Part shown: one piece after another, positions 9,890-24,117 of the stretch
How the letters are laid out: each line of letters begins with the position of its first letter
How positions within the stretch are numbered: the stretch's first letter is position 1
NCBI RefSeq assembly: GCF_900115785.1
Contig: NZ_FOYS01000003.1
Span: forward strand, 62,001-126,000
DNA: 64,000 bases
Reading direction: 5' to 3'
Source: Halogeometricum limi
GTDB lineage: Archaea; Halobacteriota; Halobacteria; Halobacteriales; Haloferacaceae
Notes under the pieces: generated by a model
The model's input: only the letters and a program-made list of their open reading frames with translations
Told to the model about the DNA's origin: nothing
Database searches by the model: none
Program-made: the position numbers and the translations under genes

Positions 9890-10626
9890 CGACTCTCACC
9901 GCCGAGCGTCGTGCCGACCGTCCGGGACCCCCCCGTCGAACCGGGCGTCCGGTCGCGGAGCACCGACCCGAGGGCGTTGACGCCGAGGACGAGAGCGAGG
10001 AGGATGGCCCCGAGTGCGAGACCCGTCTCGACGTTCCCCTTCCGCGCCTCGACGGTGATGGCCGTCGTGAGCGTCCGCGTGTACGACGTCTGGTCCGAGA
10101 AGACGATGTTGCCCCCGACGATGAGCACGGACCCGACTTCGCTGATGGCGCGTCCGTATCCCGCGAGGACGGCGGTCACGATGCCGTACCGGGCCTCGCT
10201 CAGGACGACGACTCCCACGTCCGTCGTCGTCGCTCCCGTCCCGAACGCGGCCTCTCTGAGGTCGTCACCGACCGACTCCACGGCCGAGAGCGACACGCTC
10301 AGCACGACGGGGGTCGCGAGGATGGTCTGGGAGATGATCATCGCCTGCGGAGTGAACAGCAGCTCGAACTCTCCGAGGGGTCCCGAGTTCGAGAGCGCCA
10401 GTAGGACGACGAGGCCGACGACGACGCTCGGAAAGCCCATCCCCGTCGAGATGAGCGAAGTCAGAAGGGACTTGCCGCGGAAGTCGCCGAACGCGACGGC
10501 GACGGCGACGGGGAGGCTCACGGCGGTGCTGACGAGGACGGCGACGGTGCTCACGACCAGCGAGACGAGCGTGATGCTGACCAGATACTGCGTGTTCAAC
10601 TCCGCCAGCAGACCGCCGAACAACAC
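9886..10626 (-). CDS. ABC transporter permease, tungstate type (TupB/WtpB-like)
   Basis: A 246-residue permease with about six membrane segments. The cytoplasmic EAA loop that contacts the ATPase is [20 protein letters not shown] followed by [11 protein letters not shown], typical of the TupB branch, in which the permease is encoded next to a TupA binding protein. Start is GTG 10626, 24 bases after the binding-protein gene, and the end overlaps the ATPase gene by 4 bases, so the three are co-transcribed. It forms a homodimer in the membrane in related systems. Confidence 0.88.
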
Positions 10627-10650
10627 GAGTGACCCTCGGCCGCCGTCCGA

Positions 10651-11682
10651 CTAAAAGTCCTCGGGGACGTGTCGGTCGACCCACGAGGCGAATCGGAGGT
10701 CCTCTTTCGCCCGGGACTCGCCGTTCCAGCCCTCGGGGACGTACTGGCCGAACTGCGGCGACTCCGAGAGGGCGTTCGGGAAGAACAACTGCGACCCGTT
10801 GGCGGTGTACTCGTCGATTATCGCCTGTCCCTCGGGGCCGGTGAGAAAGCCGACGTACGCCATCGCAAGCGAGTAGTTCACGTCCTCGTACGTCGCCGGG
10901 TTGACCGGGATGACGCCGTAGGGGTTCTTCAGGATGGTCGGGCCGTCTTTGAGCGGCCCCTGAACGTGAATCTGTAGGCCGACGTTGTCTTTCGTCGCCA
11001 GATAGGTTCCCCTGTCGGCGAGGGTGTACGCGCCGGACTGGTCGGCTTGCACCAGCGTGTCGCCCATCCCCTTGCCTATCTCGCGGTACCACCTACCCGA
11101 CGGGTCGACGCCGGCCGCCTCCCATATCTTCAACTCCTTCTTGTTCGTCCCGGAGTCGTCGCCGCGGGAGACGAACGTGGACTCCGTCTCGGCGATGGTG
11201 GCGAACGCCTCCGTCGCCGAGGACAGTCCGCCGACTCCCGCGGGGTCGTCCTCGGGTCCGACGACGACGAAGTCGTTGAACATCACGTCGCGGCGGTTGA
11301 CGCCGAAGCCATCTTTCAGAAACTCGTCTTCCGCCCCGCGGGCGTGGACGAGGATGATATCGGCGTCGCCGTTCCGCGCCGTCTCGATGGCCGCGCCCGT
11401 CCCCTGCGGAATCGTCTTGACCGTCGCACCGAACTGCTCTTCGAAGACGGGGTTGATGGCGTCTAACAGTCCCGTGTCGTACGTGCTCGTCGTCGTCGCC
11501 AGGGTCAGCGTCGCGTCGCCCGACTGTTGCGACCCCGCGGACTCCTGCGTGGCGCTCTCGTCCGTCGCCGCCTCGTTACTCTCCGTCGCCGAACGCTCGC
11601 CGGCGTCGCCCGAACACCCTGCGAGTGCGACGAGACTCCCCGCACCGGCCGCCTGCAGGAACCGTCGCCGTTGTATCGTCAT
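10651..11682 (-). CDS. Tungstate-type ABC transporter substrate-binding lipoprotein (TupA-like)
   Basis: A 343-residue secreted protein. The N-terminus [23 protein letters not shown] is a Tat signal ending in a lipobox (cut before Cys, which anchors it by lipid), then an acidic Ser/Thr/Gln linker to about residue 57. The mature part begins [20 protein letters not shown] and has [24 protein letters not shown], the anion-binding pattern of TupA tungstate proteins. It could also bind molybdate. First gene of the operon; ATG 11682 follows a TATA box. Nitrate reductase in this window needs a molybdopterin cofactor, so the transporter may supply it. Confidence 0.88.
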
Positions 11683-18908: not shown

Positions 18909-19817
18909 TTACTCGACGTGCCGCATCAGTTCGAACAGTTCCTCGCGGTAGGCGTCCGGCGTCAGGCCCAGGTCGATGTCGACGGTGAGGTCTATCGCCG
19001 CCGACGGCGACTGCTCCATCGTCCGCGCGAAGTTCGCGGCGGGGTAGGCCCCGCCGGAGACGAGCACGGAGTCGTTCGCAATCCACGCCGCGAGGTGGCC
19101 GGCGACGGGTATCTCGCCGCCCTCTACGGTGATGTCCTCGTCGCCGACGGTGACGCCGAACCCCTCGAAGGCGAACGTCGCCTCGTACTCCGTCAGGCGG
19201 GCGGACGTCCCGGACGCCACCTCGAAGGTCCCCGTGTTCACCCGTTCGACCGGCGCGAGGCCGGCGTCTTTCAGTCGGTTCTGGAACTGCTGGCGGGACT
19301 GCGACTCCACCTGGTCCAGAAGTTGCTGTCGGCCCGCGCCCGCGGGCAGACTCGTCAGGTCGGGGTCGAACGTCACCCGCGTCGCGAAGAACGTCGCGAA
19401 CTGCGAGGACGCCTGTCCGAGCGTCTTCTCGGCTATCTCTTCGCGCAGGGCGGCGTCCTCGTAGAGCAACGTCCGCGTCGACGCCGTCACCGTCACCGGT
19501 CCGAACTCCTCTTCGAACGCGGGGTCCTGCGTCACGTCGTCCAGTTGCGCCCACCCGCCCGCAGAGAGGCGGTCCTCCGGTACGCTCGGCGGCCGTCGCG
19601 CGGCGCTCACCGTCGTCGCCGTCGTCCCGCTACATCCCGCCAGCGCACCGACGCCCGCGGTGGCCGCGAGGCCGAGAAACGCGCGCCGACCGTGTCCGTC
19701 GCCCGTCGTATCGTCCGCCTCGCTCCGTCTCCTCGCCGCATCGGCCGTCTCGCACCGTCTTCCCGTCGTCTCCGTCCTCTCGCCTCGCTCTATCTCCGGT
19801 CTGTCTTCCCCATCCAT
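18909..19817 (-). CDS. Tat-exported lipoprotein, haloarchaeal family (DUF6517-like)
   Basis: A 302-residue protein with a long charged N-terminus (about 40 residues), then [20 protein letters not shown], a twin-arginine signal with lipobox, so it is exported folded and lipid-anchored. The mature part has [41 protein letters not shown], and an internal strand-rich half ([20 protein letters not shown]). I recall this as DUF6517, unknown role. ATG 19817 is preferred because a TATA-like box lies near 19845; GTG 19826 is possible. Divergent from the nuclease-like gene. Confidence 0.72.
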
Positions 19818-19924
19818 AGCCGCCACTCCTTCCTACTCACTGAAATAGTTATCTTCGGTGAATTGCCTGATTTCAGACAGGTAGTCCGAGTCGCTTTTGC
19901 CGCCGCCAGTCTCACTGTCGGGCA

Positions 19925-20908
19925 GTGGCCACCGACACCGACGGACCGCGGGAGTTCGCCTTCGAGGTGTCGCTCTGTTCGCACCTCGAACAGACGACGG
20001 ACTGGGTGCTCGGCCGCCAACTCGGCGCGGCCGTCGACGCCCCCGGTCGCCGGATAATCGACGTGTGCGGCGTCGTCCCGGGACCCGCGTTCGACCGCCG
20101 GGCGCGCATCACGGACCGAACGATTCCCCCGCGCGCCGTCGAGAGCGACGCGGGCGTCGGCGAGGCGACGTTCTGGCGCGACGCCTTCGACTGTCACCGC
20201 GAGACGGCGCGCGAAGTGGTCGACAGAGCGGTCGAGGCGGGATTCTTCACCACCGAGTGGCGCGGGCGCAGAGAGTACGTCCGAAAGACGACGCGTTACC
20301 CCGACGACTGGTTCGCTCGCCTCGTCGGCGTCGAGAACAAGCCAGACTTGGGTGACCCCGGAGAGTTGGAACGACAACTCCGCACGGACGTCTCGCTCGG
20401 ACTGTTCGACGAGGTGGTTCTCGCCACGGAGAGCTACGTCACGCGGGCGCACCTGAACCGCATCCCCGCCGAAGTCGGCGTCTGGCGGTTCGACCCCGAG
20501 ACGGGCGAGAGGCGGGTCGTTCGCGACCCCGCGCCGCTTCCCGTGGACGCGCCGGGCGTCGAACTCGTCGCCGAACGCGCCCTGCGGACGGACGTGGCCG
20601 TCGTCTCCGCGGCCGAAAAGCGCCGCGCGCGCCGCCGACTGGCCGAACGAACCTACGGCAAGGGCTGGCGGACGTACGCGTTCCCGGCGTGCGCGAACGC
20701 GAGAGCGACCGACGACGGGCGGCCGTACTGCGCGGCGTTCGACTGCGTCGTGGACCCCGCGCGCGACTGCGGCGGCGACTGCGGCGCGTTCGAGGCGGGC
20801 GACGCGCCCGCGGTGGACACCGACGCGCTTCGCGACGAGCGAACGCCGTGGGTCGCCGACCCCGCGGGCGTCGCGCGCCGACAGACCGGCCTGGACCGCT
20901 TCTCGTGA
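19925..20908 (+). CDS. DUF5787-like protein with PD-(D/E)XK nuclease and Cys-cluster features
   Basis: A 327-residue cytoplasmic protein, conserved in haloarchaea as far as I recall (DUF5787) without a known role. Features seen: an N-terminal Cys C18 in EVSLCSHLEQ; an Asp in GRRIIDVCGV (D46); a strand ARLVGVENKPDLG with E137-x-K139 as in PD-(D/E)XK nucleases; Q151 in ELERQLRTDVSLG one helix later; and a C-terminal Cys group C256, C269, C274, C282, C286. One early Cys, D, ExK, Q and a late Cys cluster is the order in Cas4/AddB iron-sulfur nucleases. This similarity is my reading and may be chance. Start GTG 19925. Confidence 0.6.
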   Translation: MATDTDGPREFAFEVSLCSHLEQTTDWVLGRQLGAAVDAPGRRIIDVCGVVPGPAFDRRARITDRTIPPRAVESDAGVGEATFWRDAFDCHRETAREVVDRAVEAGFFTTEWRGRREYVRKTTRYPDDWFARLVGVENKPDLGDPGELERQLRTDVSLGLFDEVVLATESYVTRAHLNRIPAEVGVWRFDPETGERRVVRDPAPLPVDAPGVELVAERALRTDVAVVSAAEKRRARRRLAERTYGKGWRTYAFPACANARATDDGRPYCAAFDCVVDPARDCGGDCGAFEAGDAPAVDTDALRDERTPWVADPAGVARRQTGLDRFS

Positions 20909-20917
20909 CGTCCGGCG

Positions 20918-21142
20918 TCACCGGTCATCGTCTTCGTTCGCCGCCGCCTCGTCGCGCTTGCGGTCGCTCCGGTCGGCGTACACCAGGCCGACGGTGACGA
21001 CGAACCCGAAGACGAGCATGAACACCGCGCCGCCGGCGAAGTCGAGTTCGCCGGTGACGACCACGGAGACGACGGCGTAGACGACGCCGCCGGCGACGGC
21101 GCTCGGAACGGCGTAGCGGAGGCCGGGAGGTGTGTCGCGCAT
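20918..21142 (-). CDS. Small two-span membrane protein
   Basis: A 74-residue protein, MRDTPPGLRYAVPSAVAGG then two membrane segments (about 10-30, GGVVYAVVSVVVTG, and 37-56, GGAVFMLVFGFVVTVGLVYA) and a basic/acidic tail of about 18 residues. No recognised family, though such DUF-type proteins are common in haloarchaea. Convergent with the DUF5787-like gene; start ATG 21142 chosen over upstream in-frame codons because the extra residues are Arg-rich and unlike a membrane N-terminus. Confidence 0.62.
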   Translation of the reverse strand: MRDTPPGLRYAVPSAVAGGVVYAVVSVVVTGELDFAGGAVFMLVFGFVVTVGLVYADRSDRKRDEAAANEDDDR

Positions 21143-22148: not shown

Positions 22149-22712
22149 TCAGCGCTTGATCTCGATCTTGACTTTCGTCCCGGACTTGACCTCGATGTCG
22201 ACGTCGCCGTCGCCGTCTATCTCGATGTCGAGTTCGTCGCCGTCGTACTCCAAGTCGATGTCGTCGGCGTCGTCCACGTCGATGTCGAAGTCGTCGGACT
22301 CGGCCTCGAATCGGCCGTCCTTGAACTCGATTTCGACGTCGTCGGCGTCCTCGATGTCGACCTCGAAGCCGTCGGCCTCTATCTCGACGCGGCCGTCGCG
22401 GAACTCGACTTCGACGTCGTCGTCCTCGTCGGTCTCGAACTCGAAGTTACGGGACTCGATCTCGATGTTGCCGTCGCGGAACTCGACTTCGACGTCGTCG
22501 TCGTCGGACTCGAACTCGAAGCCGTTGGCCTCGATCTCGACCCGGCCGTCGTCGACGTCGATCTCCACGTCGTCGTCGCGGTCCGTCTCGAACTCGAACC
22601 CGTCGCCCGAGATTTCGATGTCGGAGGCTGCCACCGCTGTTCCGGTCGCCCCGGCTATCGCGACGGATAGCACCACGAGGACGACCAGCGCGGATCTCAT
22701 CTGCTTCCACAT
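22149..22712 (-). CDS. Secreted acidic repeat protein, probable beta-repeat surface protein
   Basis: A 187-residue protein with a Sec-type signal (MRSALVVLVVLSVAIAGATG, likely cleaved after AVAA) and a mature part made of about five to six degenerate repeats of 25-26 residues. Each has an F/V-E-F/V-E-like strand, an Asp run, VEIEF or VEVEF, then RDGRVEIEA. Over half the residues are Asp or Glu, with alternating hydrophobic positions, the pattern of a beta-solenoid or stacked beta-hairpin. No cell-wall anchor, TM tail or PGF-CTERM is seen, so it may be released or held by calcium bridges. Function unknown. Convergent with nothing; long non-coding stretch upstream. Confidence 0.8.
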   Translation of the reverse strand: MWKQMRSALVVLVVLSVAIAGATGTAVAASDIEISGDGFEFETDRDDDVEIDVDDGRVEIEANGFEFESDDDDVEVEFRDGNIEIESRNFEFETDEDDDVEVEFRDGRVEIEADGFEVDIEDADDVEIEFKDGRFEAESDDFDIDVDDADDIDLEYDGDELDIEIDGDGDVDIEVKSGTKVKIEIKR

Positions 22713-23190
22713 GTTCTTTCACCTTCTGTACCCGTACGGCCACGACTCGGTCGGCGTCCGACCGCGTTCGCCGTATCAAACATGGTAGGTCTGCTACCGG
22801 TACTGATCTCGGCTTCACTGTGGGGCGACCGCACGATACTAGGTAGACTCGGCGCGCGGATGAGCAACGGACCTACGGGGCGCACGCACGAGGGCGTCAA
22901 CGGAGTAGGTCCGTAGTTTATGCCGCACGGGCCACAGCGCCCCGATTTCTCGGCTCGAAGACAGTTCGTCGGCGAGTCGACCCGGGTGACCTGATTCGAC
23001 CGTGCGGCGGCCGCGTTCGACAGATGCGGGGTCGGTAGACGCGTCTACGCGCCGTGGACGCGGACGACGGACAACGACGGGCGACGGCGGACGACGGACA
23101 ACGACGGGCGACGGCGGACGACGGACGACGGACGACGACGACCGGAACGGCGTCTCCTCGCGGCGTCGTCTCGTCCGCCCGCCGGACCGG
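22713..23190. other. Long non-coding stretch between the acidic repeat protein and the DMT transporter
   Basis: Nearly 480 bases with no convincing gene. An AT-richer patch around 22915-22925 (GTAGTTTATGCC) could be a promoter without a clear gene. The right part (23060-23140) is a tandem repeat of 27-base units. The DMT gene ends here, so this is the downstream side of that gene and the upstream side of the acidic repeat gene. Confidence 0.5.
23060..23140 (+). repeat. 27-bp tandem repeat, three units (third degenerate)
   Basis: Units at 23060-23086 and 23087-23113 are identical (GCGGACGACGGACAACGACG then GGCGACG); the third, 23114-23140, differs in the second half by GGACGACG runs. Direct, head-to-tail, no spacers. 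Confidence 0.85.
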
Positions 23191-24117
23191 TCAATCGCCC
23201 GCCGTTTCCGCCGTCTCCGTCGCTTCGCTCACCAGGTCGGCGATGGCGCGTCGCTTGAGGACGAGAAACCCGGCGAAAACGACGACGAACCCCGCGAGCG
23301 TCGAGAGCGTCAGCGTCTCGTCCAAGACGGTGACGCCGACGACGGTGGCGACGACGGGGACGAGGTAGGCGACGAGCGACGTCTCCAACGCCCCCTGCGT
23401 CTCCAGCAGGTGAAAGTAGATGAAGAAGGCCAGGGCGGTGGCGAAGACGCCGAGGTACGCGACTGCCGCGCCCGTCCGCACCGTCGCCGGGAGCGCGAAC
23501 GGTTCGCCGAGTACCGCGCTGGCGACGTGCAGGATGACCCCGCCGACGAGCATCGACCACCCCGAGAGCGCCGCCTTGTCGAGCGTCGGCCGCGCCCGTT
23601 GGACGAGGACGCCGCCCAACGCGACGCCGGACACCTGCAGGAGGATGACGAGACGGCCGACGAGGCGGTCCGCCAGCAGGTTCGCCGGGTCCGGTCGGAC
23701 GATGAGGACGACGCCGAGGAAGCCGAGGGCGATACCGACCGCTCCGACGGGCGAGACGCGTTCTTCGGGGAGGAGCACCAGCGCCCACAGCGAGGTGGCG
23801 ATGGGGACGAGACTCTGCATGATGGCGGCGACACCGCTGGGGACCGTCTGCTGGCCGACGAACAGGAAGGCGTTCATCCCGACGAGGAAGACGCCGCCCG
23901 CGAGGATGGCCGCGAGGTTAGACCGACCGGTCGGCCGCCACGAGGCACCGCTGAGGAGGGCGAACGCGAGGAGGAACGCCGCGCCGGTGTCGTAGCGGAA
24001 CGCCGCGAACAGCACCGGGTCGAGCGTCTCCAGGCCGACGGAGATGGCGAGAAACGAGAGTCCCCAGAGCGTGGCGAGGAGGGCGAACGTACCGACGGTC
24101 GCGAGACGACGGTTCAC
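23191..24117 (-). CDS. EamA/DMT-family transporter
   Basis: A 308-residue membrane protein with ten predicted segments arranged as two EamA repeats: the first from ATVGTFALLATLWGLSFLAI, the second from LILLQVSGVALGGVLVQRAR, each ending in a GFLGVVLIV or GFVVVFAGFLVL type helix. The drug/metabolite transporter superfamily exports or exchanges small metabolites, amino acids or drugs; the substrate here cannot be told. Start GTG 24117. Single gene. Confidence 0.9.
   Translation of the reverse strand: MNRRLATVGTFALLATLWGLSFLAISVGLETLDPVLFAAFRYDTGAAFLLAFALLSGASWRPTGRSNLAAILAGGVFLVGMNAFLFVGQQTVPSGVAAIMQSLVPIATSLWALVLLPEERVSPVGAVGIALGFLGVVLIVRPDPANLLADRLVGRLVILLQVSGVALGGVLVQRARPTLDKAALSGWSMLVGGVILHVASAVLGEPFALPATVRTGAAVAYLGVFATALAFFIYFHLLETQGALETSLVAYLVPVVATVVGVTVLDETLTLSTLAGFVVVFAGFLVLKRRAIADLVSEATETAETAGD

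Follow-up and report, generated by a model that had tools for sequence, protein, structure and literature searches.

DUF5787, a predicted PD-(D/E)XK nuclease family of haloarchaea with a winged-helix insert and a four-cysteine module

DUF5787 proteins likely form a family of PD-(D/E)XK nucleases that is near-universal in Halobacteria, occurs there as two paralogues and works along the lines proposed below. Their architecture is unusual for such an enzyme, and this core haloarchaeal nuclease probably acts on DNA. The gene considered here lies in a 64,000-nucleotide stretch of the Halogeometricum limi genome (the whole stretch is referred to as the window) and its product matches the Pfam family DUF5787 (PF19100) with an E-value of 2.7e-95 and 319.7 bits, above the curated cut-off of 25. 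The original prediction had read it as a Cas4/RecB-like iron-sulfur nuclease. What is new is a winged-helix insert and a four-Cys module, an unusual architecture within the known PD-(D/E)XK superfamily that replaces the Cas4-like reading.

The open reading frame and every residue singled out at the start (C18, D46, E137, K139, Q151, C256, C269, C274, C282 and C286) are where they had been placed, and the protein additionally carries C48, C90 and three His residues. None of the models in NCBIfam, PADLOC and PHROGs matched it, and a PDB sequence search with it returned no relative. Among the papers searched, none was found to name DUF5787 or to report an experiment on the family; searches on the haloarchaeal background were likewise nil. 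The features of the locus are as follows (window coordinates, strand, description):

18909-19826, minus strand: divergent lipoprotein-like gene
19925..20908, plus strand: DUF5787 protein, group A copy, predicted PD-(D/E)XK nuclease of 327 aa with a GTG start
19937..20104, plus strand: predicted first half of the PD-(D/E)XK core, residues 5-60, with helix 7-24 (invariant E10, E14, E22) and strands 28-34 and 44-52 (AF2 secondary structure, fold matches over model residues 5-200, conservation)
19976..19978, plus strand: C18, early Cys, for which Ser or Ala can stand in (seen in 15 of 211 sequences; six state changes on the tree)
20060..20062, plus strand: D46, Asp predicted to bind metal in the active site (invariant, 211 of 211)
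20123..20293, plus strand: predicted inserted winged-helix domain, residues 67-123 (many winged-helix chains match at Z 5-6)
20297..20527, plus strand: predicted second half of the PD-(D/E)XK core, residues 125-201 (AF2 model, structural matches)
20333..20341, plus strand: E137-N138-K139, predicted E-x-K active-site motif (E137 and K139 invariant, 211 of 211)
20375..20377, plus strand: Q151, on helix 148-158 after the E-x-K strand (invariant, 211 of 211)
20555..20662, plus strand: predicted hairpin and long helix joining the core to the Cys module, residues 211-246 (AF2 model)
20684..20800, plus strand: self-contained four-Cys module, residues 254-292, with C256, C269, C282 and C286 (invariant, 211 of 211; predicted to fold alone; DUF7140 sequence match)
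ending at 20918, minus strand: convergent short membrane-type gene

Predicted fold and conserved residues

AF2 prediction from 56 group A orthologues gave a best model with a pLDDT of 87.7 and a pTM of 0.86, although this model is set apart from the other four, which scored 78.4-81.4. The chain is modelled as helix 7-24, strands 28-34 and 44-52, an insert, strand 130-138, helix 148-158 (with Q151 and D155) and strands 163-168 and 185-190. This succession of helix-strand-strand-(insert)-strand-helix-strand is the predicted PD-(D/E)XK core layout, and in the model the D...(D/E)-x-K residues fall on the right elements, with D46 inside strand 44-52, E137 inside strand 130-138 and K139 adjoining the latter.

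Foldseek alone found no match in the PDB below E 0.001 (best 2ph7, E 0.035), so the fold call rests on an aligned structural second look, in which many rows are only middling in score. Its top row was 3dnx (Z 11.3, rmsd 4.8, 140 of 146 residues aligned), which we take to be a member of the MmcB/COG5321/DUF1052 (PF06319) family. Further rows comprised XisH (2okf, Z 8.1, rmsd 2.6, 112 aligned; 2inb, Z 8.0, rmsd 2.5, 111 aligned), the repair endonuclease 2vld (Z 7.1, rmsd 3.0, 99 aligned), EndoMS 5gke (Z 7.1, rmsd 3.8, 106 aligned), SfsA 4dap (Z 6.9, rmsd 2.7, 108 aligned) and Card1 6wxw (Z 6.7, rmsd 3.5, 114 aligned). The cores of NucS/EndoMS, XisH, SfsA and Card1 thus superpose on the DUF5787 model at Z 6.4-8.1 over ~100-115 residues, albeit with no common sequence family, and to our knowledge none of them has a four-Cys module at the corresponding place. 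The structure prediction and fold search suggested at the outset have therefore yielded a predicted PD-(D/E)XK fold.

In a viral structure library, the two top-ranked models, at E 3.9e-4 and 1.5e-3, were MmcB-like DNA repair proteins, and these models together with 3dnx are the best structural neighbours of DUF5787. In Caulobacter, MmcB is described (PMC9578287) as a PD-(D/E)XK endonuclease that counters cross-links, and the DUF1052/COG5321 family, ~160 aa long and almost confined to Proteobacteria according to PMC1189080, was predicted there from sequence to consist of active nucleases. Relative to MmcB, DUF5787 has an additional, long C-terminal region that includes the four-Cys module, and PF06319 matched none of 56 DUF5787 members at E-values up to 10. 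The other addition concerns the core itself: a long run of winged-helix chains aligned with model residues 67-123 at Z 5-6, which places a winged helix after the D46 strand and ahead of the E-x-K strand. Our literature search found no report of a winged helix inserted in PD-(D/E)XK-type nucleases.

Residue conservation was assessed over 211 distinct sequences, 82 from group A and 129 from group B (224 loci giving 210 distinct sequences, plus the window). Three loci were dropped because of a broken reading frame (L058), a contig end (L086) or duplication of the window (L001); also excluded were duplicates, loci fetched for other ends (L089, L119-L168) and open reading frames that fell short of 200 aa or exceeded E 1e-20. 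Sampling was non-random, as additional group B copies from the window's family were sought after Ser18 had been seen in four group B copies. Across this set 27 of the 327 positions are invariant, and E10, E14, E22, D46, E137, K139, Q151, D155, C256, C269, C282 and C286 are identical in 211 of 211. Since so few positions are invariant and D46, E137, K139, Q151 and the four late Cys are among them, the constancy of the named residues is more than chance. The original prediction had staked itself on E137, K139 and the Cys residues not varying among homologues: this holds for E137, K139 and the four late Cys, but not for C18 or for C274, the latter being Cys in 29 and Arg in 160 of the 211 sequences. 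No variation in the catalytic set or at C18, C256, C269, C282 and C286 was seen in a smaller set of 81 sequences (55 A, 26 B).

Distribution, paralogues and gene neighbourhood

Of 292 genomes assigned to the class Halobacteria, 289 contain DUF5787, and at least two matches were listed in all but three of the 289. The genomes without it (G021, G217 and G285) measure 1.9-2.3 Mb; G021 keeps NurA and DUF7140. A scan of 392 genomes of the phylum returned 81 with a match, 80 of them Halobacteria and one a chance hit, and the 311 other genomes of the phylum gave no real match. Spread beyond the class was rejected, as the single outside hit (G480, E 2.9e-4) falls on the zinc knuckle of a protein whose features clearly point to a methionyl-tRNA synthetase.

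The family comprises two paralogue groups with a mean identity of 33% between them: A, represented by the window gene, and B, represented in the same genome at G000:C6:148434-149462. Within the window's family, a group B copy was found in 117 of 119 genomes. A third paralogue was considered and dropped, as nine of ten opened genomes with three matches contained split hits and the third match in G135 was a different open reading frame (L119), whose E-V-K...Q stretch the PF19100 profile reaches at E 1.6e-4, under the Pfam cut-off. This haloarchaeal frame (L119:1402-2286, minus strand; 295 aa, free of internal stops and of Pfam matches above cut-off) contains two stretches of the D...E-V-K...Q type and may be a tandem PD-(D/E)XK protein; that the profile reaches such motifs in an otherwise unrelated protein speaks for the nuclease reading of DUF5787.

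A role in defence or on mobile elements was set aside. Neither paralogue matched PADLOC or PHROGs, DUF5787 was absent from 50,697 phage records, a scan of viral contigs with A1 found none, and a single plasmid record, an 828-kb Natronorubrum replicon, contained a DUF5787 protein, which is 32% identical to the query. Likewise, NurA occurs in 59 of 59 genomes, ruling out DUF5787 as its replacement in haloarchaea.

As originally noted, the gene is flanked in the window by a lipoprotein-like and a membrane-type gene, but neither neighbour is conserved: among 56 orthologous loci, relatives of the former turned up at 15 and relatives of the latter at 2. Further along the window, the minus strand encodes a secreted-looking acidic repeat protein (22149-22712) whose DNA repeats with periods of ~78 and 153 bases over 22255-22621. 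A short tandem repeat at 23056-23142 (period 27, 97% match, 2.6 copies at 23060-23130) lies just downstream of a minus-strand transporter gene, presumably EamA-type, whose end is at 23191.

The neighbours of both paralogues lack a clear link to DNA repair and make RNA possible as the substrate. In the 56 group A loci, where counts depend on flanks of 6 kb, some shorter, IF2-gamma and a Nob1-like PIN gene each occur in 40, upstream on the opposite strand, and Rpb7 in 39; downstream there is an MBL-fold gene in 45 and an AAA gene in 41. All 16 group B loci have a Nudix gene upstream on the same strand, often within ~150 bases (the other 15 being 78-88% identical to that of this genome), as well as an S10-like gene nearby, with DUF5797 also around. 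Joined to the same fold and four-Cys module, the proximity to IF2-gamma, Nob1-like PIN, Rpb7, Nudix and S10-like genes would fit an RNA-processing or RNA-decay nuclease tied to translation. We regard this as unlikely, given that the A gene is divergent from the IF2-gamma operon, such that the link may be mere synteny, and that PD-(D/E)XK enzymes with a winged helix are mostly DNA-acting. The Nudix gene and group B gene of this genome (L123:9334-9813 and 9935-10963, on G000:C6) stand out as a candidate functional pair; a pairing of Nudix protein and nuclease fits nucleotide or nucleic-acid clean-up, without choosing between DNA and RNA.

The cysteines and the comparison with Cas4

In Cas4 and AddB, as described in PMC3466216, the cluster is held by four Cys, a single one close to the N terminus and three towards the C terminus, and a four-Cys module is reported in PMC5704561 for all Cas4 proteins. 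DUF5787 resembles these enzymes in its PD-(D/E)XK fold class, in the D...E-x-K...Q order and in the occurrence of Cys at both ends of most members. Were it built in the same way, the nuclease domain would be locked by a [4Fe-4S] staple bound to C18 and three of the four late Cys. The feature order loosely fits such a design, and C18 is indeed Cys in 196 of the 211 sequences. However, 13 group B proteins (genera g6, g10 and g18) carry Ser at this position and two group A proteins (L265 and L269) carry Ala, and all 15 retain the four late Cys. Sampling was aimed at such cases, so that 15 of 211 is no estimate of frequency. On a FastTree phylogeny built without that column the C18 state changes six times, and counting by paralogue and clade gives at least four separate replacement events. 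Exactly four Cys in total are found in 10 of the 211 proteins.

Further observations set DUF5787 apart from Cas4. Its late Cys are spaced x12-16, x11-12, x3 in nearly all of the 211 proteins, whereas 12 halophile Cas4 sequences have C40 followed by C176-x2-C179-x5-C185. No Cas4-type Pfam model was among the matches of 56 DUF5787 members at E-values up to 10. Profile-profile comparison with halophile Cas4 by hhalign gave no match either (probability 0.2%), although this comparison lacked a positive control and counts for little alone. Neither Cas4 nor AddB had a row among the listed structural matches, an absence that proves nothing. DUF5787 thus differs from Cas4/AddB in an early Cys that is dispensable, in four late Cys rather than three and their spacing, in the winged-helix insert and in lacking a partner of the CRISPR or helicase kind. 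A cluster is occasionally ligated by Ser, and that would account for 13 of the 15 exceptions; zinc is able to replace iron-sulfur in such staples (stated in PMC3466216). Even so, the two Ala proteins, the Cys spacing, the missing Pfam and profile matches and a C-terminal part that folds without C18 (see below) make a Cas4/AddB-type staple very unlikely. Membership in that group is not upheld, and we conclude that DUF5787 is not a Cas4 relative. The more general part of the original prediction, a nuclease with a metal site besides the active site, fares better once the early-Cys site of Cas4/AddB type is taken out of it: the predicted fold, the invariant catalytic set and the four invariant late Cys make such a bound metal likely.

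When residues 205-327 were predicted alone, the result had a pLDDT of 81, rising to 83-93 per block within the Cys region 255-294, and showed the same elements as the full model, arguing that the module does not need the C18-bearing helix. The four late Cys persist in the 15 proteins with Ser or Ala in place of C18, and C274 varies. Most likely, therefore, these four form a self-contained module that makes up the metal site independently of C18. As for the metal, zinc and iron-sulfur appear about evenly probable.

A structural search with the C-terminal model returned two rows at Z of at least 2. The better one, HPAD-gamma (2y8n_B; Z 3.4, rmsd 2.5, 38 aligned, residues 254-292), is a very weak match with a Foldseek E of 4.0 and shares no enzyme context with DUF5787. 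HPAD-gamma is described in PMC12358834 as the HiPIP-like subunit of a glycyl radical enzyme, binding two [4Fe-4S] clusters. Sequence relatives of the Cys module were absent from the PDB. Matches of the C-terminal profile to CDGSH iron-sulfur proteins (E 0.34-1.3) covered only a helix and the first Cys and were taken as chance.

The Pfam domain DUF7140 (PF23601), present in 57 of 59 haloarchaeal genomes, was matched by 18 of 43 Cys modules at E-values up to 10 (best E 8e-6), the first member scoring 17.5 bits, below the cut-off of 27. The reverse search with the DUF7140 profile found two group B modules at E 1.3e-4 (24.3 bits) and 1e-3 (21.3 bits), both also below cut-off. DUF7140 and the group B module have in common a C-x14-16-C-x11-12-C spacing and a C-x2-F start; they differ in the source of the fourth Cys, which comes from a leading C-x2-C in DUF7140 and from a trailing C-x3-C in DUF5787. 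Membrane-type DUF7139 proteins (L285:853-1833, L287:54-1073 and L288:968-1999) end in a DUF7140 module (C-x2-C...C...C). With DUF7140 matched in a DUF7139 protein, the module would be common to at least two haloarchaeal core proteins.

Proposed mechanism and its setting

We propose that E10 and/or E14, glutamates on the first helix, would together with D46 and E137 hold one or two Mg2+, that K139 would activate water and that Q151 may help position the site, a predicted active-site step supported by residue invariance and fold. In the model, the winged helix inserted between the D46 and E-x-K strands might grip the duplex beside the active site. The Cys256-Cys269-Cys282-Cys286 module could bind one metal centre alone, either zinc or [4Fe-4S], and serve as a structural or substrate-binding element that stabilises the C-terminal part or reads the substrate; C18 would not be a ligand that this site needs. 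Such an enzyme would probably act in a DNA repair or processing step common to all haloarchaea, a role in keeping with the protection against cross-links described for MmcB (PMC9578287), its nearest structural neighbour by name.

A bolder version of this proposal appears rather doubtful to us. Here, DUF5787 would be a metal-gated PD-(D/E)XK nuclease, with the winged helix inside the catalytic fold and a HiPIP/DUF7140-like module carrying a redox-active [4Fe-4S]. It would have been duplicated before the Halobacteria radiation, leaving two such nucleases in core DNA maintenance, and DUF7139-DUF7140 would be a second use of the same redox or iron sensor. A DNA-binding regulator that kept the PD-(D/E)XK fold and lost catalysis, for which the modelled winged helix and the degenerate relatives in the superfamily mentioned in PMC1189080 might speak, is scarcely credible, as invariance of the predicted catalytic residues in 211 of 211 sequences from both paralogues would be unexpected after such a loss.

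Under the proposed nuclease mechanism, nearly every haloarchaeon carries two paralogous predicted nucleases with no assigned role. Haloarchaea are polyploid and have to cope with intense UV, with desiccation and with stress from oxygen, which makes two core nucleases direct targets for knockout. The natural replacements of C18 indicate, ahead of bench work, which Cys to mutate, and the kinship of the Cys module with DUF7140 opens a route to asking about the ligand of that small domain. Among the hosts is Haloferax volcanii, a species amenable to genetics whose genome gave a match in the family search. In Haloferax massiliensis, the group A gene (L058) is split over two frames, representing either a broken gene or an assembly error.
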